Shown here in pieces: positions 6,540 to 28,683 of a stretch of 42,723 nt of DNA (its first letter is position 1; each line of letters begins with the position of its first letter). The notes beneath the pieces were generated by a model. It was given only the letters and a program-made list of their open reading frames with translations, did no database searches and had not been told where the DNA came from. The position numbers and the translations under genes were made by a program. The DNA comes from Clostridium sp. (lineage in GTDB: Bacteria > Bacillota > Clostridia > Clostridiales > Clostridiaceae), in the NCBI RefSeq assembly GCF_016650035.1, contig NZ_JAENWM010000026.1, positions 1 to 42,723 of the forward strand. Direction: 5' to 3'.

Positions 6540-6634
6540 TTGTCGTACGATTTAATAAAAAAAAAGAAGGAAATTAGACAAAAAGAGAGAACTGTTAATA
6601 TAAGGAAAAAACTTGAGGGATGGTATATTATATT

Positions 6635-7414
6635 ATGCAAAACAACGTAAATTATGTATCTATTGAATTAATATCGCCAAATGTTTATCAGCCTAGAAAG
6701 CATTTTAATGAAGAAACTATTGAGGAACTGTCGCAGTCAATCAAATCTTACGGGATAATTCAACCATTAACAGTTAGAAAAAGTGGAGAAAACAGATATG
6801 AATTGGTGGCGGGCGAGAGAAGACTAAGAGCAGCTAAAAAAATAGGATTACAGCAGGTTCCAGTAATTATTATAGATATTACAGATAAAGATTCTGCTGC
6901 AATTGCATTACTGGAAAACTTGCAAAGAGAAGATTTAAATTTTTTAGAAGAAGCAGTGGCTTATTTTAATCTTATTCAAGATCATTCCTACACACAAGAA
7001 CAATTAGCTCAAATAATAGGAAAAAAACAATCAACTATAGCTAATAAACTAAGATTGCTAAAACTAGATAAAGAAATAACTAATGTCTTGGTAGAGAATA
7101 AACTTACTGAAAGACATGCTAGAGCACTGTTAAAATTGCCTGATATACATATTCAAAAGAAAGTGCTTAAAGTAATTATTGATAAATCGCTTAATGTTAA
7201 ATTCACAGAACAACTTATTGAAAGAGAATTATTAAAGTTATCCAGGGATGGAGTAGCTGTGGAGGGAAAGAAAAAAATTAAAGGAATTTTTTCGCCTAGA
7301 GTATATATAAATACGATTAAACAAGTTTTCGAAAAGTATGGTATAAATGCAGAATATAGATCTAAGGAATTAGAAGATAGTATAGAAGTTACAATAAGAA
7401 TACCTAAAAAATAA
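6635..7414 (+). CDS. noc: ParB-like nucleoid occlusion protein (Noc family)
   Basis: A ParB-fold DNA-binding protein of 259 residues, in the position after rsmG where Firmicutes carry noc, a ParB paralogue that protects the nucleoid from septation and spreads on DNA as a CTP-dependent clamp. Visible are the CTP-binding motif GERRLRAAK at 60-68, the ENLQREDLNFLEEA box, and a helix-turn-helix near 120-143 (YTQEQLAQIIGKKQSTIANK). The start is uncertain: ATG 6620 directly abuts GAGGG with no spacing, whereas ATG 6635 has 15 nt, so I prefer 6635. No Bacillus-type Noc-binding palindrome was noticed, so a ParB-like specificity cannot be excluded. parAB follow. Confidence 0.85.
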   Translation: MQNNVNYVSIELISPNVYQPRKHFNEETIEELSQSIKSYGIIQPLTVRKSGENRYELVAGERRLRAAKKIGLQQVPVIIIDITDKDSAAIALLENLQREDLNFLEEAVAYFNLIQDHSYTQEQLAQIIGKKQSTIANKLRLLKLDKEITNVLVENKLTERHARALLKLPDIHIQKKVLKVIIDKSLNVKFTEQLIERELLKLSRDGVAVEGKKKIKGIFSPRVYINTIKQVFEKYGINAEYRSKELEDSIEVTIRIPKK

Positions 7415-7423
7415 TGTGTATAT

Positions 7424-7460
7424 AAAGAGAGAATGTTTCACGTGAAACATTCTCTTTTTT
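7424..7460 (+). terminator. Terminator after noc built around a parS palindrome
   Basis: Bases 7424-7459 form an almost perfect 36-bp palindrome (one G-T position, 7427/7456) centred on CACGTG, followed by a T-rich tail (TTTTTT, then ATATTTTTTT to 7470). It should act as a Rho-independent terminator for noc. Its core is the parS site at 7434-7449. Confidence 0.75.
7434..7449. promoter_or_regulatory. parS centromere site 1
   Basis: TGTTTCACGTGAAACA is an exact match to the canonical 16-bp bacterial parS bound by ParB/Spo0J. It lies between noc and parA and forms the core of the terminator hairpin there. Confidence 0.95.
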
Positions 7461-7588
7461 ATATTTTTTTGAGAAAAGACTATTAAATTGTTACACATAA
7501 ATATATAATAGCTTTATAGAATATAAAGAACTTTATATCAAAATAACTTATGAAAATAAAAATAACATTATGAATGGTAGGTGTAGTC

Positions 7589-8356
7589 ATGAAAACTATA
7601 TGTATTTTTAATCAAAAGGGCGGGGTAGGTAAAACTACTACGAATATAAACCTATGTGCATATTTAGCTATGCGGGGTAAAAAAGTTTTAACAATAGATA
7701 TCGACCCTCAAGGTAACACTACAAGTGGACTCGGATTTGATAAAAAAAAGATAGATTTATCAATGTACGATTTATTAACATCAGATATCTCAATAAGAGA
7801 AACTATAAAGGAATGTGAGCTAATAAATAATCTATACGTAGTACCTTCTACAATGGAACTTGTAGGCGCAGAAGTAGAACTAATTAATAGAAGTAATCGT
7901 GAAAATATGCTAAAGGAAAAGCTAAAAGAAATAGACGGTGAATTTGATTATATTTTTATAGATTGCCCACCATCCCTTGGAATACTAACTATAAATGCAC
8001 TTACTGCAGCAGATACTGTACTTACACCTATTCAATGTGAGTTCTATGCATTAGAAGGTGTTGGTCAATTAGTTAATACCATAAGCCTTATTAGAAAATC
8101 TTTAAATAAAAAGCTGGAAATTGAGGGTATAATTTTGAGTATGTATGATAATAGAACAAAACTTTGTAATGAGGTTGTATCAGAAGTTAAAAAATACTTC
8201 AATGATAAAGTTTACGAGACAACTATACCTAAAAATATACGACTGGCAGAAGCACCAAGTTTTGGACTTCCGATTATGTTGTATGATGACAAATGCAAGG
8301 GCGCAGAAGCCTATGCGAAACTAGTAAATGAATTTTTAAATAGACAAGGGAGATGA
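7589..8356 (+). CDS. parA: Chromosome-partitioning ATPase ParA (Soj)
   Basis: A 255-residue MinD/ParA ATPase that binds the nucleoid as an ATP dimer and, with ParB-parS, drives origin segregation; in Bacillus, Soj also regulates DnaA. The deviant Walker A KGGVGKTT is at 10-17 (starts MKTICIFNQKGGVGKTTTN), Walker A' is DIDPQGN and Walker B is FIDCPPSLG. The frame is open to an ATG at 7574, but ATG 7589 has GGTAGGTG at the right distance and gives the standard N-terminus. ParB begins 6 nt after the stop, so the pair is an operon. Confidence 0.96.
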   Translation: MKTICIFNQKGGVGKTTTNINLCAYLAMRGKKVLTIDIDPQGNTTSGLGFDKKKIDLSMYDLLTSDISIRETIKECELINNLYVVPSTMELVGAEVELINRSNRENMLKEKLKEIDGEFDYIFIDCPPSLGILTINALTAADTVLTPIQCEFYALEGVGQLVNTISLIRKSLNKKLEIEGIILSMYDNRTKLCNEVVSEVKKYFNDKVYETTIPKNIRLAEAPSFGLPIMLYDDKCKGAEAYAKLVNEFLNRQGR

Positions 8357-8362
8357 TTAGTA

Positions 8363-9211
8363 TTGAGCAAAAAATTTGGGTTGGGTAAGGGTCTTGGTGC
8401 TTTAATACCAGAAGAAGAAGTTCTAGAGGATGGTTCTTCAATTATAAAAGTATCTATGAATTTAATAAAAGCTAACAAAGATCAACCAAGAAAAAGTTTT
8501 GATCCTGGGAAAATATCTGAATTGGCACAATCAATAAAAGAACATGGTGTGATACAACCTATCATATTGAATAAAGAAGGTGATATATATGTAATTATAG
8601 CAGGTGAAAGAAGATTCAGAGCAGCTAAAAGTATTGGACTAACGAATATACCTGCAGTTATAATGAATGTAGATAATAAAAAAGTATTAGAAATATCATT
8701 AATAGAAAACATTCAAAGAGAAGATCTAAATCCTATTGAAGAAGCAATAGCATATAAGAAACTAATATTAGATTTTAATCTTACTCAGGAAGATATAAGT
8801 AAAAAGGTATCCAAGTCAAGAACAGCTATAACAAATTGCATGAGATTATTAAACTTAGATGAAAGAGTTCAAGATTACATAATAGATGGGGTAATATCTG
8901 AGGGCCATGGAAGGGCAATACTCGGAATAAACGATAAACAAATTCAACATAAAATTGCACAAATGGTTATAGATGATAGTCTTAATGTTAGACAAACAGA
9001 GAAAGTAGTAAAAAATTATGATGACGAAAAAAAAGTGAAAGTGGTTGAAAAACAAAACAATATATACTATAAAGATGTATTGAATAAATTAGAAGATCAT
9101 TTTGGTACTAAAGTTTTTATAAACTCTAAAAATAAAAACAAAGGTAAAATAGAAATTGAGTATTACTCAGAAGAAGATTTTGAAAGAATTTTAGAGGTTT
9201 TTAATATATAA
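8363..9211 (+). CDS. parB: Chromosome-partitioning protein ParB (Spo0J)
   Basis: A 282-residue ParB CTPase clamp that loads at parS and spreads along origin DNA, recruiting SMC. The N-terminus MSKKFGLGKGLGALIP is classic for Spo0J. GERRFRAAK (81-89) binds CTP, ENIQREDLNPIEEA is at 115-128, and a helix-turn-helix lies around 140-163 (TQEDISKKVSKSRTAITNCM). Start codon is TTG 8363 behind GGGAGATG. The C-terminal dimerisation segment is present. A perfect parS begins at the base after the stop codon. Confidence 0.96.
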   Translation: MSKKFGLGKGLGALIPEEEVLEDGSSIIKVSMNLIKANKDQPRKSFDPGKISELAQSIKEHGVIQPIILNKEGDIYVIIAGERRFRAAKSIGLTNIPAVIMNVDNKKVLEISLIENIQREDLNPIEEAIAYKKLILDFNLTQEDISKKVSKSRTAITNCMRLLNLDERVQDYIIDGVISEGHGRAILGINDKQIQHKIAQMVIDDSLNVRQTEKVVKNYDDEKKVKVVEKQNNIYYKDVLNKLEDHFGTKVFINSKNKNKGKIEIEYYSEEDFERILEVFNI

Positions 9212-21732: not shown

Positions 21733-23064
21733 ATGGATACACCTCTTAGAAGTTTACCCTATAATTTAGAAGCAGAACAATCAATAATTGGGTCAATGCT
21801 TATTGATAAAACCGCCATATCAAGGGTGGTGGAGGTTTTAATAACTGAAGATTTTTATAGAGATTCTCATAAGGTTATATTTAACGCTATTTTTGAATTA
21901 TACCAAAAGGATACACCTATTGACATGATTACTTTACTCGAACATTTACGTTCTTCTGAAAAATTAGAAGCTTCAGGTGGAATTACATATATCTCAGAGA
22001 TAAGTAATTCAGTACCATCTACTGCTAACTTAAGTTCATATATAAAAATTGTAGATGATAAATCTATTTTAAGAAAACTTATTAGAGCTTCAACTGAGAT
22101 TATGGAGAATTGTTATAATAAGCAAGACAACGTGGAAGCAGTTATGGATCTTGCAGAACAAAAGGTATTTAATATAGCAGAGAGAAAGAATTCAAGTGAA
22201 TTAGAACCGATGAATACAGTTCTTGAGAGAGGTTTTTTAGAAATAGAAAGAATCTTTAATAATAAAGGTGAAACAACAGGTATATCTAGTGGGTTTCCAG
22301 AACTTGATGATAAAACGGCTGGATTTCAAAAGGGAGATATGATTCTTATTGCGGCAAGACCTTCTATGGGTAAAACTACTTTCGCACTAAACTTAGCTGA
22401 GTATGCAGCACTTAGGGGAGGAAAAAGCGTAGCCATATTTTCTCTGGAAATGTCTAAGGAACAGCTTTCTTATAAATTACTTTGTTCAGAAGCAAATGTT
22501 GACATGTCAAAGCTTAGACATGGTGCTTTAGAAGATAGGGATTGGGAAAACATAGCCAAAGCTTCTGGTCCCCTAGCGGCTGCTAAAATATTCATTGATG
22601 ATACAGCGGGAACTTCTGTTATGGATATGCGTTCAAAGTGTAGAAAATTAAAAATGGAGCACGGTATCGATATGATAGTTATTGACTATCTTCAACTTAT
22701 GTCTGGTAGCAATACAGAAAGTAGACAACAAGAGGTATCAGAAATATCAAGATCAATTAAAGCTCTTGCAAAAGAGATGGAGTGTCCAGTTATTGCACTA
22801 TCACAGCTATCTCGTGCACCAGAGCAGAGAGCTGACCATAGACCTATGCTATCTGACCTTAGAGAATCAGGGTCTATTGAGCAGGATGCTGACGTTGTTA
22901 TGTTCTTATACAGAGATGAGTATTATGATGCTGAAACGGAAGATAAAAATATAGCAGAGCTTATAATAGCAAAACAAAGGAATGGCCCTATAGGAACAGT
23001 TAAGCTTGCATGGATAGGTCAATTTAGTAAATTTGCAAAACTTGATGTGATTTATAGTGATTAA
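21733..23064 (+). CDS. dnaB: Replicative DNA helicase DnaB (DnaC of Bacillus)
   Basis: 443 residues: N-terminal domain (about 1-105, starts MDTPLRSLPYNLEAEQSIIGSML), linker helix, and a RecA-like helicase domain with Walker A ARPSMGKTT at 208-216, Walker B VIDYLQLM and the DLRESGSIEQDADVV motif. This is the hexameric 5'-3' helicase at the fork. ATG 21733 follows TTAGGAG. It ends the conserved origin-proximal block and is closed by a strong terminator. Confidence 0.97.
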   Translation: MDTPLRSLPYNLEAEQSIIGSMLIDKTAISRVVEVLITEDFYRDSHKVIFNAIFELYQKDTPIDMITLLEHLRSSEKLEASGGITYISEISNSVPSTANLSSYIKIVDDKSILRKLIRASTEIMENCYNKQDNVEAVMDLAEQKVFNIAERKNSSELEPMNTVLERGFLEIERIFNNKGETTGISSGFPELDDKTAGFQKGDMILIAARPSMGKTTFALNLAEYAALRGGKSVAIFSLEMSKEQLSYKLLCSEANVDMSKLRHGALEDRDWENIAKASGPLAAAKIFIDDTAGTSVMDMRSKCRKLKMEHGIDMIVIDYLQLMSGSNTESRQQEVSEISRSIKALAKEMECPVIALSQLSRAPEQRADHRPMLSDLRESGSIEQDADVVMFLYRDEYYDAETEDKNIAELIIAKQRNGPIGTVKLAWIGQFSKFAKLDVIYSD

Positions 23065-23089
23065 TCATTTACTAAATTTTTAAAACAAG

Positions 23090-23132
23090 AATAGGATAAC
23101 AAAACTTATAAAGTTTTGTTATCCTATTTTTT
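23090..23132 (+). terminator. Strong terminator after dnaB
   Basis: An 18-bp perfect stem (23090-23107 with 23111-23128) with a 3-nt loop, followed by TTTT. Confidence 0.9.
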
Positions 23133-23191
23133 ATAGATAATAACAAGAATTTTCTATTACAAATGAGCTGTTGTGGCTATTTGGTTCAATA

Positions 23192-23490
23192 TAGATATAT
23201 CTACATTTGTAGATATATCTATATATATAAATAAATATATAGGTAGATAAACATATATATTTACAAATAGGTGATTAAATAATATTTAGTTAGAGCAAAT
23301 AACGAACTGTAAAATCAAAAGAAGCCACATAGTTATGTTTTTATATAAAGATTAGTAATATATAATGAGAATAAGACAAAAGAGTAGCAAGAGGTATATA
23401 TATAAACATTTATAGATATATTTACAAATGTATATAAGTAGATATATAAATGTCTATATATAAGTTTACAAATATTTGAAAGTATTTCAA
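23192..23490. repeat. Iteron-like repeat region, candidate parC centromere
   Basis: In the 437-bp gap between the dnaB terminator and the actin-like gene, TTTACAAAT occurs at 23260, 23421 and 23465. The inverse-type ACATTT occurs at 23203 and 23406, with ATAAATGT near 23447. Two copies of TAGATATATCTA (23192-23203, 23210-23221) flank CATTTG. The repeats fall in two clusters (23192-23270 and 23400-23480) about 130 bp apart, followed by the inverted repeat TTGAAA-GTA-TTTCAA (23476-23490). Type II partition operons carry such iterons upstream of parM, where ParR binds and autoregulates. AT-richness makes some matches cheap, so this is a candidate. Confidence 0.6.
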
Positions 23491-23569
23491 TATAAAAGAA
23501 GGATATTACATTTTAATACAGAATATATAGTTATAAACCATAAAAAGAAACATTTAGGAGGATAAAAAA

Positions 23570-24625
23570 ATGAATTTAGTTGAAATATCAAAAAAATACC
23601 CTGCGCTAAGTAAAGTGTTAGCCTCTGTACTAACTGTAGACATAGGAAATACTTTTACAAAAACAAGTACGGATGTTACTTTTGCTAGTAGGGTATCATC
23701 AGTAAATAAACATGGTTCAAGGGCTACTGGAGTAAGTAACATCACTTGGAATGGAAAGTTATATACAGTGGGCAACAAAGAAGGTAAGCTTAATATGGAA
23801 GCTAACAAATACATGTCAGACCATTATAAGTTGAACTTGCTTAATGCTATTGCGCTAAGTTTTAAAGGTGAAACTAGCATAAAGGTAAGACTTGCTGTTG
23901 GACTTCCTGCGGAATACTATATAGATCATAGTGTCTCTCTTAAAAATGAGATTAAGAAGATGGAAAAGCAATCTATAACATTAAATAGTAAAACATATGA
24001 TATAGAAATTTTAGATGTACAAGTATTTAAACAAGGGGGTACACTTAGTGCTGAAACTATGGAAATATTTAGTTACCCAATGCTTCTACTTGACTTTGGT
24101 GGTGGTACTTTAGATGTATCTCATTGGAAATATGAAAAAGATGAATTTGGTAACAAGGTGCTTGGAATGACTAAGGCTAGTAGTTTTGCTCAACACGGGT
24201 TCCAGCCGATAATTGAATCTATACTAACTAAATTTAATTCTGCAGAAGGGTCTGACGGTAATTATGATATATCAGATGCTATTGAATATTTAGAAGATAA
24301 CGAACTACCATTTGGAGAATCAAATGTGTTACAAGAAATTAAGGACCAAGTGTTGAGACCGTATGTGGAGAAAGCAATAAGTTCGATTAATAGCTCTTTC
24401 AAGCCTAACATTTGTAAAGATATTAGAATAATAGGAGGTCCTGCCGAGATACTACTTGAATACTTACAAAATGAATTTATTAGAACCGAGCCAAAATTAA
24501 TAGACAATAAAAATCCTCAATGTGCTAATGCTATACTATTTGCTGAAAGATATAAGGAACTGTTAGTATTAGAATTTTTAGATGGAAATAAAGAAGTTGC
24601 TGCAACTACAGAAGTAGGATATTAA
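23570..24625 (+). CDS. ParM/StbA family actin-like ATPase
   Basis: 351 residues with the actin-fold ATP-binding signatures: phosphate 1 VDIGNTFTK at 23-31, phosphate 2 LLLDFGGGTLDV at 172-183 and the adenosine motif IRIIGGPAE near 285-293. This pattern matches plasmid segregation actins (ParM, Alp-type), which form filaments that push sister plasmids apart, not MreB or FtsA. It has about 20 extra residues before the phosphate-1 strand. ATG 23570 follows TTAGGAGG. The next gene starts 3 nt after its stop, giving the parM-parR order. Such genes are usually on plasmids; here it lies right after dnaB on the chromosome. Confidence 0.85.
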   Translation: MNLVEISKKYPALSKVLASVLTVDIGNTFTKTSTDVTFASRVSSVNKHGSRATGVSNITWNGKLYTVGNKEGKLNMEANKYMSDHYKLNLLNAIALSFKGETSIKVRLAVGLPAEYYIDHSVSLKNEIKKMEKQSITLNSKTYDIEILDVQVFKQGGTLSAETMEIFSYPMLLLDFGGGTLDVSHWKYEKDEFGNKVLGMTKASSFAQHGFQPIIESILTKFNSAEGSDGNYDISDAIEYLEDNELPFGESNVLQEIKDQVLRPYVEKAISSINSSFKPNICKDIRIIGGPAEILLEYLQNEFIRTEPKLIDNKNPQCANAILFAERYKELLVLEFLDGNKEVAATTEVGY

Positions 24626-24627
24626 TT

Positions 24628-25017
24628 ATGGGAGCACTCCGTAAAACTGTATCATCAAACTTAGGAGAGGAAACAGATAAAGATTTAATTGTTTATGTGA
24701 GCAATATGGAGAAGAAGGGTATCAATAATTCTAAACTTATAAAGCAGGCACTAAGATTTTACAGGGACTATGGAAATAAAGTTAAACAACTAGATACAGT
24801 AGATATTGCAAACATCCTGGATAACCCTGAAGTTAAAAAATATATAGGTAATATAGTTGGAGATCTTTTTAGAAGTGCTATACCAAATTCTGATTCACAA
24901 ATTAATGATATAGATATAGTTAAAAAATTAAAGAGAGAACAACAAGAGAGGGATATAGATTCTGTTGAGAGTGAGTATATGAAAAAGCTTAATTGTGTTA
25001 AAGATATGTCTTTATAG
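24628..25017 (+). CDS. Probable ParR-like DNA-binding adaptor
   Basis: 129 residues, no family recognised with certainty. Residues 4-50 (LRKTVSSNLGEETDKDLIVYVSN, then a second helix NNSKLIKQALRFYRDYG) fit a ribbon-helix-helix: one strand and two helices, with a Gly-Ile-Asn-Asn turn. The rest is charged and acidic towards the C-terminus, as in ParR adaptors whose tail caps ParM filaments. Position (3 nt after the actin-like gene, before a terminator) and size also match ParR. Expected job: bind the upstream iterons, repress the operon and couple DNA to the filament. Confidence 0.62.
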   Translation: MGALRKTVSSNLGEETDKDLIVYVSNMEKKGINNSKLIKQALRFYRDYGNKVKQLDTVDIANILDNPEVKKYIGNIVGDLFRSAIPNSDSQINDIDIVKKLKREQQERDIDSVESEYMKKLNCVKDMSL

Positions 25018-25020
25018 ATT

Positions 25021-25048
25021 GGAGTGACCAAAAGGCCATTCCTTTTTT
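25021..25048 (+). terminator. Terminator of the parMR-like operon
   Basis: GGAGTG-A-CC (25021-25029) pairs with GG-C-CATTCC (25034-25042) around an AAAA loop, followed by TTTTTT (25043-25048). Confidence 0.85.
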
Positions 25049-25140
25049 CAGTTTAAACAGATAAATCTAATACATATATTAAATCTTTTGCATATATGAT
25101 AAAATGTAGTTGGAATAAAATAATAGGAATGGGTGATTTA

Positions 25141-25458
25141 ATGTTCTGTCCAATTTGTGGGTCTCAAAATGATGATACATCAAATTTTTGTAAAACTTGT
25201 GGGATTAATTTATTAATTAATTCGGAGAAAACAGGCATAAGGAATATAAGTGAAAAGAATTGGCTAGTTGCATTATTACTATCAATTTTTCTTGGATCCT
25301 TTGGCATTCATAGGTTTTATGTGGGAAAAACAGGTACAGGAGTTTTAATGTTATTAACCTTTGGTGGATTTGGATTATGGACAATAATTGATATTATTTT
25401 GATTGCTACTAATTCATTTACGGATATAGATGGATTACACCTAAACAAAAATATTTAA
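25141..25458 (+). CDS. Zinc-ribbon TM2 domain membrane protein
   Basis: 105 residues. An N-terminal zinc ribbon CPICG...CKTCG (Cys at 3, 6, 18, 21) is followed by a TM2 domain: KNWLVALLLSIFLGSFGIHRFYVGKTGTGVLMLLTFGGFGLWTIIDIILI, two transmembrane helices linked by the GxHRFYxGK loop. The frame extends up to 25096, but ATG 25141 has AGGAATGGGTG upstream and begins directly with the zinc ribbon. Function of bacterial TM2 proteins is unknown. It has its own short transcription unit between two terminators. Confidence 0.85.
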   Translation: MFCPICGSQNDDTSNFCKTCGINLLINSEKTGIRNISEKNWLVALLLSIFLGSFGIHRFYVGKTGTGVLMLLTFGGFGLWTIIDIILIATNSFTDIDGLHLNKNI

Positions 25459-25489
25459 TAGAAGTATTGTCAACTTATTATATATTTTT

Positions 25490-25524
25490 AAGGAAGGATA
25501 ATAATTTTTTATTCCATCCTTTCT
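25490..25524. terminator. Possible terminator after the TM2 gene
   Basis: AAGGAAGGAT (25490-25499) can pair with ATCCTTTCTT (25516-25525, one G-U) with a T-rich loop. Weak T-tail on the plus strand, so only tentative. The rest of the gap to 25702 shows nothing except promoter-like TATAAT at 25674-25679. Confidence 0.45.
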
Positions 25525-25702
25525 TCATAAAGTAATCATAATATTTGAATATTTTACATAAAATGAAACATGAGGCATCACTCATATTAATTATATGCGT
25601 TTTAAATTCCCATTTAAGCATAAATATTAAAAACAATTAATTAACAATAAATGTATTTAAAGAATAATATTTGTATAATGCAATAAACATGGGGGGTGCG
25701 TT

Positions 25703-25771
25703 ATGTTTAATATATTTTCTGTGAATTATATTAAAAAACATGAGATTATAAAAGAAATACAGGAGGGTTAA
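25703..25771 (+). CDS. 22-codon leader peptide
   Basis: ATG 25703 follows the very strong Shine-Dalgarno GGGGGGTG (25690-25698) and a TATAAT at 25674-25679. The peptide starts MFNIFSVNYIKKHEIIKE and ends QEG. Its last codons contain AGGAGGG, the ribosome-binding site of the next gene, and its stop is one base before that gene's ATG. It is either a leader peptide that controls translation of the operon by coupling or a small protein. No family recognised; too short for statistical gene calling. Confidence 0.5.
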   Translation: MFNIFSVNYIKKHEIIKEIQEG

Positions 25772-25772
25772 A

Positions 25773-26795
25773 ATGGGGGCAAATGTAGGTATTGTAGGCA
25801 CTGGAATTTATATACCTGAAAAATTTATGACAGCAGCAGACATTGCAAAGGCTACAAAGGGTATTTGGTCTGAACAGGCAATTTTCGAAAAGCTTGGAGT
25901 AAGAAAGAAGCCAGTACCAGGTACGGATGATGGCACTCAAGAAATGGGCGCAAAGGCTGCTCTTGACTGCCTTAAGAATACGGGAATTGGTGCAGAAGAG
26001 ATAGATGTTATTATTTGTATGGGAGAGGAGTGGAAAGAATACCCACTTACCACTTCAGCACTATATATACAGGGTAGACTAGGAGCCGTAAATGCTTGGG
26101 GAATAGATGTTCAAAATAGATGTTGTACAACTGTTTCTGCAATAAAGATAGCAAAAGATATGCTTATAGCTGATGATTCTATAAATACAATAATGATAGC
26201 TGGAGGCTATAGAAATGGGGATTTTGTGGATTATACTGATAAAAATATGTCTATGATGTACAATCTTTCAGCTGGAGGAGGTGCTATAATCCTTAAGAAA
26301 AATTATGGGAGAAACCTAGTACTTGGTTCTCATATAATAGGAGACGGTTCTTTATCTAGAGCTGCAGGAGTTGAAATAGGAGGTATATGCAACCCTATAA
26401 ATAGCGGCAATATAAATGAGGCGAGTAAATCCTTAAGATTAATGGAGCCTATAGTCATGAAAAATAGACTTAAACTAGTATCAATGCCAAATTGGTACAA
26501 ATGTATAGATAGTGCTTTTGAAAAATCAGGTATTGATAAAAGCGAGGTAGACTATTTAGCAATACTTCATATGAAGCGTTCATCACATATAGATATGCTT
26601 AAGGAGCTAAAGCTTAGACCTGAACAGTCAATTTATCTTGAAGACTATGGTCATATGGGGCAGGTTGATCAAATATTATCGCTTCATCTTGGGCTTGAAC
26701 AAGGGAAAATAAGAGATGGGTCTGTAATTTCTATGATTGCAGCGGGGATAGGTTATGTATGGGCAGCAAATGTTATTAAATGGGGTGTAATGTAA
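25773..26795 (+). CDS. 3-oxoacyl-ACP synthase III-like (thiolase fold) protein
   Basis: 340 residues with the KAS III/HMG-CoA synthase fold: MGANVGIVGTGIYIPEKFMTAADI at the start, candidate nucleophile Cys117 in IDVQNRCCTTVSAI (aligned to the FabH AACAGF Cys), and His266 in LHMKRSS (FabH HQAN). At the third catalytic position, where FabH has Asn in YGNTS, this protein has His294 (DYGHMGQVDQI). It may condense an acyl-CoA, transfer an acyl group, or have another thiolase-type role. It is first in an operon with an ABC transporter whose permease start overlaps its stop (TAATG), unlike the usual fab cluster setting. Confidence 0.8.
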   Translation: MGANVGIVGTGIYIPEKFMTAADIAKATKGIWSEQAIFEKLGVRKKPVPGTDDGTQEMGAKAALDCLKNTGIGAEEIDVIICMGEEWKEYPLTTSALYIQGRLGAVNAWGIDVQNRCCTTVSAIKIAKDMLIADDSINTIMIAGGYRNGDFVDYTDKNMSMMYNLSAGGGAIILKKNYGRNLVLGSHIIGDGSLSRAAGVEIGGICNPINSGNINEASKSLRLMEPIVMKNRLKLVSMPNWYKCIDSAFEKSGIDKSEVDYLAILHMKRSSHIDMLKELKLRPEQSIYLEDYGHMGQVDQILSLHLGLEQGKIRDGSVISMIAAGIGYVWAANVIKWGVM

Positions 26796-27670
26796 TGGGA
26801 GTTCTTTTGCAAATCCTATTAAGGAGTTTGGAAACGGGAAGTATCTATGCCCTTGCCGCACTTGGAATAATCATTGTTTATCGTACTTCTAATACTGTAA
26901 ATTTTGCTCAAGGTGCAATTGGCATGTTCAACGCTTATGTCGTAACATTCTTTTTTTCAAAATTTGGACTTCCTTTATGGCTTTCAATCATTATTGGAGT
27001 CATAAGTGCTATGATCATGGGACTTTTAATAGATGTTTTGATAATTAGGCATACAAAAAAAGTTTCAGCTGTTGCAAAGCAGATTATAACTCTTGGATTA
27101 ATGATGGTCTTACTGGGAATCGTACCACTATTATTTGGAGTGGATCCAATGCGCCTTCCAAGATTAATAGAAAGTGGAGATATTAAACTACTGGCTGCTT
27201 CAATTTCTTACAATGGATTGATTAATATAGTTTTTGGTCTCGCTATTATGGCAAGTCTTTTCTTCATTCTTCAAAAGACTAAGTGGGGGCTCGCGGTAAG
27301 AACAACTGCATCTAATGAAAACACTGCGAAGCTAATGGGAGTTCCTACGAAGACCGTGACTATGGGAGCATGGGCAGTTGCGGGGATACTTGGTGTTTTA
27401 GCAGGAGTCATGGTTGCACCTATGACATCAGTTACGCTTAATTTAATGGATGGAATACAGATTGATGCCTTAATTGCTTGTGTGTTAGGAGGATTTCAGT
27501 CCTTTTATGGTCCTGTATTAGGTGCTTATATCATAGGAATTAGCAGAAATTTATTATTATATTATGTGTCTTCAATATGGGGAGAACAAATATTATATAT
27601 CCTTATTCTTGTGTTCTTGGTATTTAGACCTCATGGTCTTATTGGTAAGAAAATTGTAAAGAAAGTATAG
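26795..27670 (+). CDS. Branched-chain amino acid-type ABC transporter permease (LivH family)
   Basis: 291-residue membrane protein, about eight hydrophobic segments, with the LivH start (GSIYALAALGIIIVYRTSNTVNFAQGAIGMFNAYV) and the family core ASNENTAKLMGVPTKTVTMGAWAVAGILGVLAGVM. ATG 26795 overlaps the preceding stop by one base; the in-frame ATG at 26780 is inside the upstream gene with no ribosome-binding site. Forms the membrane channel with the LivM-type partner. Substrate of the HAAT family cannot be told from the permease; it includes branched-chain amino acids, urea, amides and carboxylic acids. Confidence 0.92.
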   Translation: MGVLLQILLRSLETGSIYALAALGIIIVYRTSNTVNFAQGAIGMFNAYVVTFFFSKFGLPLWLSIIIGVISAMIMGLLIDVLIIRHTKKVSAVAKQIITLGLMMVLLGIVPLLFGVDPMRLPRLIESGDIKLLAASISYNGLINIVFGLAIMASLFFILQKTKWGLAVRTTASNENTAKLMGVPTKTVTMGAWAVAGILGVLAGVMVAPMTSVTLNLMDGIQIDALIACVLGGFQSFYGPVLGAYIIGISRNLLLYYVSSIWGEQILYILILVFLVFRPHGLIGKKIVKKV

Positions 27671-27678
27671 GTGTGAAT

Positions 27679-28683
27679 ATGAAAATAATAATAGAAAAAC
27701 TAAGAAATCCACGTTTTCAATTTATATTATTTGGTATTGTGCTCGCTACTATCCCTAGTTTGGCAAATATTGGAATGCTTAAAACAAGCCATATTACAAT
27801 TATAGGTGGAACACTTATTTATGCAATAGCTGCACTGGGTTTAAATATTCTTTTAGGGTATTCAGGGCTTATTTCACTAGGAACTGCTGGATTTATGGGC
27901 CTGGCTACTTACATTTCTGCCTACGTGACTATAAATATGAAATTACCGTTTGAAGTTGCATTACTTTTAGCGGTGATAATTCCAACTTTAATAGGAATTC
28001 TTGTGGGACTAGTTTCATTAAAAATGGAAGGAATGTATCTTGCAATTGCAACTTTATGCGTATCTGAAATTCTAAAAAAAACCTTTGAAGAATTAAATAT
28101 GTTTACCAATGGATTCAGTGGAAAACAAGCTGGATTTCCAGTATTATTCGGATTTTTAAAACTAGACAGAACAACGACTTACTATTTAATAGTTTTTGTT
28201 CTAATAGTAATTATGCTAATAACTTACAACATGATAAATGGCCAACTGGGAAGAGCACTAAACGCTATGCGTGGCAGTGAAGCTGCAGCACAAGCTATGG
28301 GTATAAATCTTCTAAAGTACAGATTGGTAGCATTTGCACTAGCAACAATATTTGCAAGTGTAGCGGGAGTTTTATATGTTCATTTTATTCGGTTTTCTTA
28401 TCCTACTACATGGAACTTAAAGCTTTCATTAGACTTTTTAGCTATGATAATAATTGGTGGTTTAAGATCAATTTTTGGGACGGTTCTGGGAGCTTTTATA
28501 GTTTTTGCAGTTCCAGATTTATTTTTAAAACAAATTCCATTTCTTAATCAATTATCCTATGTATTTAATGGAGTGCTTATAATACTCGTTGTTATGTTTT
28601 ATCCAAACGGTATTATCTACATAGGGCATGATATCAAAGAATGGAGAGAGAAATTTAAAAAGAGAGGGCAAAAAAATGAATAA
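27679..28683 (+). CDS. Branched-chain amino acid-type ABC transporter permease (LivM family)
   Basis: 334 residues with the LivM signature GYSGLISLGTAGFMGLATYISAYV and the EAA-like AMRGSEAAAQAMGINLLKYRLVAFALATIFASVAGVLY, about nine hydrophobic segments. ATG 27679 follows TAGGTG; a GTG at 27673 is in frame. It overlaps the next gene by 8 nt (ATGAATAA). Partner of the LivH-type permease. Confidence 0.92.
   Translation: MKIIIEKLRNPRFQFILFGIVLATIPSLANIGMLKTSHITIIGGTLIYAIAALGLNILLGYSGLISLGTAGFMGLATYISAYVTINMKLPFEVALLLAVIIPTLIGILVGLVSLKMEGMYLAIATLCVSEILKKTFEELNMFTNGFSGKQAGFPVLFGFLKLDRTTTYYLIVFVLIVIMLITYNMINGQLGRALNAMRGSEAAAQAMGINLLKYRLVAFALATIFASVAGVLYVHFIRFSYPTTWNLKLSLDFLAMIIIGGLRSIFGTVLGAFIVFAVPDLFLKQIPFLNQLSYVFNGVLIILVVMFYPNGIIYIGHDIKEWREKFKKRGQKNE

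Follow-up and report, generated by a model that had tools for sequence, protein, structure and literature searches.

The DNA analysed here (hereafter the window, 42,723 nucleotides in length) is a whole contig of the 3.97-Mb draft genome of a Clostridium species from the cold-adapted C. frigoris/algoriphilum/bowmanii group, and contains two adjacent forward-strand genes: parM (positions 23570 to 24625), encoding an actin-like partition ATPase of 351 residues that is identified by family matches, and a parR candidate (24628 to 25017), encoding 129 residues. To the left lies dnaB (21733 to 23064, forward strand), the gene of the replicative DNA helicase, which occupies that position at 12 of 12 loci and whose identity, confirmed by NCBIfam model NF004109 (E = 8.4e-258, over cut-off), bears out the claim of an earlier note that the module lies immediately after this gene. 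A strong A+T-rich hairpin with a T run (23087 to 23131; -23.6 kcal/mol) follows and is probably the terminator of dnaB; a similar hairpin is visible by eye upstream of parM at all 12 loci. The ribosome-binding site of parM, AGGAGG (23557 to 23562, forward strand), is kept in the 12-way alignment. The parR candidate begins 2 nt beyond the parM stop codon, so that the earlier note was right about the adjacency and wrong about the gap, which it gave as 3 nt.

The terminator that the same note placed after parR corresponds to a weak hairpin with a T run at about 25021 to 25050 (forward strand; -10.3 kcal/mol), which is absent from the terminator-scan listing; the only hairpin listed there is that at 23087 to 23131, on the other strand. 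The conserved right neighbour is a gene with a TM2 domain (25096 to 25458, forward strand; Pfam TM2, 1e-22), which directly follows dnaB in one relative with an empty site, G016. A search of positions 22900 to 25800 against Rfam returned no family over threshold, and inspection of the open reading frames by eye recognised neither a phage gene beside the pair nor, as previously remarked, an integrase or plasmid replication gene next to it. Farther to the right, within positions 25773 to 28683, a gene for a 340-residue ketoacyl synthase III-like protein stands, by eye, directly before genes resembling branched-chain amino-acid ABC permeases.

The description of the first protein as a segregation actin of the ParM/StbA type is upheld by its matches to Pfam ALP_N (E = 5.8e-15, over cut-off) and to PHROG 691, 'partition protein' (3e-34). 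Matches to the ParM C-terminal family (E = 7.2e-6; 26.6 bits, where the cut-off is 27.4) and to the Alp7A C-terminal domain (E = 0.0056) fall under their cut-offs. The Pfam and NCBIfam searches listed no MreB, FtsA or EutJ model at E values up to 1, and those identities were rejected for lack of a family match; the NCBIfam search of ParM listed nothing at all, and a search of the PDB gave no useful match. Among 72,556 plasmid records, 24 contain a match to ParM, 18 of them from Clostridioides (27-31% identity among the matches listed), and a single record covers 80% or more of the query at one location; among 50,697 phage records there are three. The ancestor of this ParM was likely of plasmid type, and old.

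The second gene is called parR on account of its position, its length, and a conserved N-terminal part (with a pattern like that of a ribbon-helix-helix, or RHH, protein) that is separated by a variable linker from a conserved C-terminal tail. Its presence at all 12 loci agrees with the earlier placing of a gene in the parR position. No family matches the window's protein over threshold, and an RHH fold is weakly supported: (i) model RHH_1 is found in two of 12 orthologues (best E = 0.069, under threshold), and in a search of the window's own genome it has no match; (ii) other models do equally well or better on the orthologues, namely T4SS in three of 12 (best 0.0097) and YgbB in five (best 0.073), all likewise under threshold; and (iii) an hhalign comparison with seven other ParR-like proteins aligns residues 6 to 48 in the RHH register with a probability of 3.5%, and with a score of 19 against 8-12 for eight column shuffles. 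In a separate PDB search, residues from about 21 to 98 aligned with the C-terminal domain of RecA, the only protein found; the matches were to fused RecA chains (1.9e-10 and 1.7e-19) and to single RecA (0.08-0.12 and weaker). Homology to RecA was rejected; the low values are taken to arise from the adding-up of repeated matches along a helical segment, the resemblance itself being probably due to chance.

The region that the earlier note called iteron-like, upstream of parM, does contain two clusters of repeats, in DNA (23140 to 23495) of 20% G+C, compared with 31% for the window. Searches for repeats and palindromes found the palindrome ATATCTACATTTGTAGATAT with half-sites in the first cluster (23189 to 23275), and the same half-sites, TTTACAAATGTA and variants, in the second (23395 to 23480). 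Similar arrays, of one or two clusters each, are visible by eye before parM at all 12 loci, and 11 of the 12 (G010 being the exception) hold at least one exact copy of the palindrome TACAWWTGTA. The 8-mers TATCTACA and CATTTGTA occur 23 and 17 times, against 0.7 and 0.4 expected from dinucleotide shuffles, in counts that are not independent because the 12 loci are related. With two or fewer mismatches allowed, a 20-base form of the palindrome occurs at four distinct places in the 3.97-Mb genome, three of them upstream of parM, compared with two for the reversed control; two of five places in G006, the two best, and one of four in G015 lie in the corresponding region. In G004, whose repeats have drifted from the pattern, none of seven places lies at its own parM, and G016, which has no parMR, shows seven scattered matches. 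No second array was found with the 20-base pattern in G000, G004, G015, G006 or G016, in what is a weak test for G004; the 10-base palindrome, at 60 places in G000 compared with 39 for its control, is too common for extra arrays to be judged. The upstream array is read as a candidate parC on the strength of these patterns.

Between the second cluster and the ribosome-binding site lies an element of sigma-H type (GAAGGATAT-N11-ACAGAATAT; 23498 to 23526, forward strand), 43 nt before the parM start and conserved at the 12 loci. The sigma-H consensus has been given as RNAGGAWWW and RNNGAATWW (PMC8510167, in the part of that source available), and boxes of this kind, 11 to 12 nt apart upstream of the gene, are present at nine of 12 parM loci, the window's included; the relaxed form AGGRNWW-N11-RNNGAATWW lies 69 to 71 nt before parM at all 12. 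The first box reads AGGAWWW at those nine loci, AGGANWW at 11 and AGGRNWW at 12, each of the three divergent loci departing from AGGAWWW at one position (AGGAGTT in G006 and G012, AGGGATT in G005). In dinucleotide-shuffled upstream regions of 150 nt, a relaxed box arose anywhere in 251 of 24,000 (1.0%). The promoter block, whose limits were picked after the alignment had been viewed, has 24 invariant columns of 36, compared with 70 of the 184 other gap-free columns, about 20 of which are dnaB codons. As a control, 11 of 12 distant ParM genes have no relaxed box within 400 nt upstream; the remaining one, L013, has it at -350. The genome is A+T-rich, in which repeats and weak promoters are easy to find, and this caution applies to both the array and the promoter.

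The stricter pattern AGGAWWW-N11/12-RNNGAATWW has 78 matches in the window's genome, against 29 for its reversed control. The 76 matches beyond the window, after boxes inside frames of at least 100 codons had been dropped, comprise 39 distinct boxes, and 27 of these are followed, at a distance of up to 300 nt, by an open frame that is preceded by a stretch resembling a ribosome-binding site. Ten of the 27 frames were searched against families, yielding two Spo0A, dnaG, an EF-G-like protein, Hfq, a type II/IV secretion ATPase, a partial MraZ under cut-off, and three that matched nothing; spoIIAA, spoVG and ftsZ were not recognised among the box frames, with those ten so searched. The start of dnaG in C. 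difficile is assigned to SigA, even though dnaG has a sigma-H-type box in this genome. Both Spo0A genes are full-length, exceed the cut-off of TIGR02875, and carry boxes of their own, 45 and 48 nt before their starts compared with 43 for parM; they lie at L123:627-1439 (reverse strand) and L136:253-1065 (forward strand), on contigs C88 and C122, and their products are 72% identical. Two copies of Spo0A are unusual.

Judged by its sequence, the parM box is similar to those of C. difficile genes whose promoters have been attributed to sigma-H, spoVG for example; the set described in the available part of PMC7438776 also includes spo0A, fusA1, ftsZ and a Spo0J-like gene, and the same source indicates that sigma-H serves non-spore genes as well. 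No sigma-70-type site scoring at least 9 of 12 was listed upstream of parM on the forward strand, and over positions 23065 to 25100 such sites number 10 on both strands, compared with 14.2 expected. The pair is probably, as far as its promoter sequence can indicate, turned on by sigma-H.

The pair is chromosomal and occupies a fixed place near the origin. Seven orthologous contigs come from Clostridium algoriphilum, C. psychrophilum, C. bowmanii, C. frigoris, C. lacusfryxellense and two further strains, which belong to the cold-adapted C. estertheticum group. Of the 17 genus genomes compared (the window's own included), 12 have a parM orthologue at 87-90% identity, with parR in the same 12, and all 12 share the order lon-dnaB-iterons-parM-parR-TM2, a parM of 351 codons and the 2-nt gap. 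In four near-complete chromosomes (contigs of 3.85-5.47 Mb, with dnaA and rpmH recognised by eye) parM lies 23-25 kb from dnaA: its start is 23.4 and 23.2 kb from that gene in G001 and G015 (by eye), and in G004 (4.76 Mb) and G006 (5.47 Mb), whose contigs start inside dnaA and have rpmH near the end, the near edge of parM is 23.5 and 25.1 kb from that end. The assignment to the chromosomal origin region made at the outset therefore stands, and the possibility that the window is a plasmid contig or a misassembly, which had been named as a refutation, is excluded by the same placement on these large contigs; carriage on a plasmid, as for type II (ParMRC) systems, was not found. Beyond the genus, a parM profile detected one further genome in the order, G083 (4e-30; 225 genomes at 1e-20), and in a search of 398 genomes of the phylum at 1e-8 it detected none other than the window's own. 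Three relatives, G007, G008 and G010, carry in addition one to three extra ParM homologues each (loci L016-L021; 23-30% identity), every one with a small downstream ParR-like gene and without a relaxed sigma-H box within 400 nt.

When carriers are compared two by two (66 pairs), the median dN/dS is 0.060 for parM, 0.151 for parR and 0.049 for dnaB, and internal stops are absent. A constraint on parM so close to that on dnaB argues that the locus is neither decayed nor recently inserted; decay was rejected on the dN/dS values and the absence of stops, and recent insertion because trees place carriers in three or more separate lineages within the genus. The earlier note had left the choice between domestication and decay, of which the former is supported (12 of 17 genomes, strong purifying selection) and the latter excluded by the same data; its second suggestion, that the module is the trace of an integrated element, fails for recent integration, given the shared place and the selection. 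The pair is very probably a functional, domesticated chromosomal ParMRC.

The chromosome's more familiar partition genes are close by, as the earlier note had stated. Positions 6620 to 9211 encode Noc and a ParB-family protein, each with a model match over cut-off, together with a member of the ParA superfamily that occupies the soj position and matches no model over its cut-off. Perfect parS sites occur at 7434 and 9212, against 0.04 matches expected. These ParABS-type genes are 14-16 kb from the ParMRC-like locus.

Plasmid type II partition systems (ParMRC, and Alp7A with its relatives) have the order parC-parM-parR and an iteron array. The present locus shares with them its domain families, that order and the array, and differs in being chromosomal, kept by descent, equipped with a sigma-H-type promoter, and related at 27-31% identity to its Clostridioides plasmid matches. 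Chromosome-encoded ParMs accompanied by ParR were reported in 2025 (PMC12270681, to the extent available): polymerisation is described for two of them and conservation within Desulfitobacterium for one, no role is known for them, and no conserved parC was identified among Cb-type strains. The locus described here resembles those systems, as they appear in that source, in its adjacent chromosomal parM and parR and in a place conserved within the genus (here 12 of 17 genomes), and shares with them a repeat-type parC (in the case of Cb-cParM) and the presence of ParABS. Compared by description, it differs in its position beside dnaB, 23-25 kb from dnaA wherever a carrier can be placed, and in its local array and sigma-H-type promoter; the main text of PMC12270681 nowhere uses the words 'dnaB', 'promoter' or 'sigma', and has 'oriC' once, in the title of a reference. 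Among the titles and abstract openings listed from open-licence papers, no description of an origin-linked or sigma-H-driven ParM was found. While chromosomal ParMs are thus a known kind, one that is tied to the origin and equipped with its own array and a transition-phase promoter appears to be new.

Two additional systems offer more limited parallels. The AlpC/AlpA system of the Corynebacterium prophage CGP3, in the account available, likewise combines an actin, a DNA-binding adapter and a cis site within a chromosome; it serves a prophage, whereas parMR has no phage gene recognised beside it by eye. RacA, the origin anchor of Bacillus, is comparable by analogy solely in the role proposed here, the placing of origins at sporulation; its machinery is unrelated to ParMRC, and no family relationship is claimed.

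The mechanism that we consider as probable as not is that a type II (ParMRC) system of plasmid-type ancestry, fixed in one Clostridium group 23-25 kb from oriC and timed by sigma-H, separates sister origins. ParR would bind the iterons that precede parM, giving every replicated origin region one ParR-parC complex; ParM would then polymerise, and push or hold two such complexes, and hence the sister origins, apart. The sigma-H-type promoter would activate the operon as growth ends or sporulation starts, the time at which origins have to reach the poles, and ParR might damp its own promoter, a proposal suggested by the position of that promoter right beside the iterons. ParMRC would work alongside the ParABS-type system 14-16 kb away. 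Action of the pair on the origin region is slightly favoured; a service to sporulation is plausible but somewhat doubtful, and attractive because many clostridia are without RacA, which is sporulation-specific (PMC4949633, in the part available). Against this service weigh the other, non-spore genes under sigma-H and the relatives that manage without parMR. Most tentative is the fullest form of the proposal, in which the locus would constitute a second, actin-driven chromosomal centromere, with ParM, under sigma-H control near oriC, moving sister origins to opposite poles as sporulation begins.

The alternative that best survives these observations is a chromosomal ParMRC active all through growth as a back-up to ParABS, with the sigma-H-type box as one of several promoters. 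It is compatible with the shared place and the selection on both genes, with the ParABS-type genes and parS sites beside the locus, and with the distribution of SpoIVA, which all 17 genus genomes encode, the three that lack the pair at a locus open to judgement included, so that the pair is no condition for keeping this sporulation gene. Continuous expression fits poorly, however, with a scan that listed, before parM, no forward-strand sigma-70-type site scoring 9 or more out of 12, and with a sigma-H-type block more conserved than the other intergenic columns, and this explanation is considered rather unlikely.

Distinctly less probable is that an integrated-plasmid relic has been kept to stabilise or exclude visiting plasmids with the same parC. 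The best plasmid matches are indeed ParMs of Clostridioides plasmids, at 27-31% identity, and three relatives do contain further ParM homologues at 23-30%; yet the 20-base pattern revealed no second array in the five genomes searched (weakly for G004), the neighbouring reading frames, inspected by eye, include no recognisable integrase or plasmid replication gene, and a conserved sigma-H-type promoter would not be expected to be needed. Equally improbable is a ParM-derived filament with a task other than DNA movement, such as shaping the cell or marking its poles, or one that ParR controls, for which there is a precedent in the depolymerising ParR proposed for the chromosomal Cb-cParM (PMC12270681, as available) and against which stand the iteron array beside the genes and the N-terminal part of ParR, both kept at 12 of 12 loci.

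Actin-type partition has so far been tied to plasmids, and the chromosomal ParMs known are without a role. Sigma-H-timed separation of origins would give one of them a role that can be tested: its location next to oriC, its centromere-like array and its promoter all point to timed chromosome movement, and the apparent switch-on by a control signal of sporulation entry raises the possibility that the bacterial chromosome has in parMR a second apparatus for its movement. The question bears on how clostridia without RacA bring their origins to the pole at sporulation (PMC4949633, in the part available); if the proposal is true, a ParMRC near oriC does a RacA-like job in clostridia, many of which have no RacA.

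Natural controls are provided by relatives that lack parMR, among which one has an empty site. Of the 15 genomes of the genus that can be judged at the locus, three (G016, G002 and G009) are without it. In G016, about 425 bp separate dnaB from the conserved part of the TM2 gene, with no parM; in G002 and G009 other sequence follows dnaB, again with no parM. G013 and G014, at 94% and 51% completeness, have no parM match, and are left out of the 15 because their contigs break off inside dnaB. In trees of lon-dnaB, G016 groups with three carriers (support 100/98 for DNA, and a moderate 89/88 and 91/81 for protein), so that loss is the simplest reading there, and an empty site among carriers indicates that the pair can be lost. 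G002, G009 and G014 group together, the forks at the base being open, and G002 and G009 may either have lost the pair or never had it. The segment just after dnaB has also accommodated, in some of these genomes, a repeat that looks of MITE type, with inverted ends AACTAAAAGTATATGTTGCTAGAAATGCG and variants and a length of about 150-250 nt by eye; its ends were not found in the window at up to three mismatches, and it is present in G012, G006, G016 and G002 and, in shortened form, in G005 and G009 (L023, L024, L025, L026, L035, L036).
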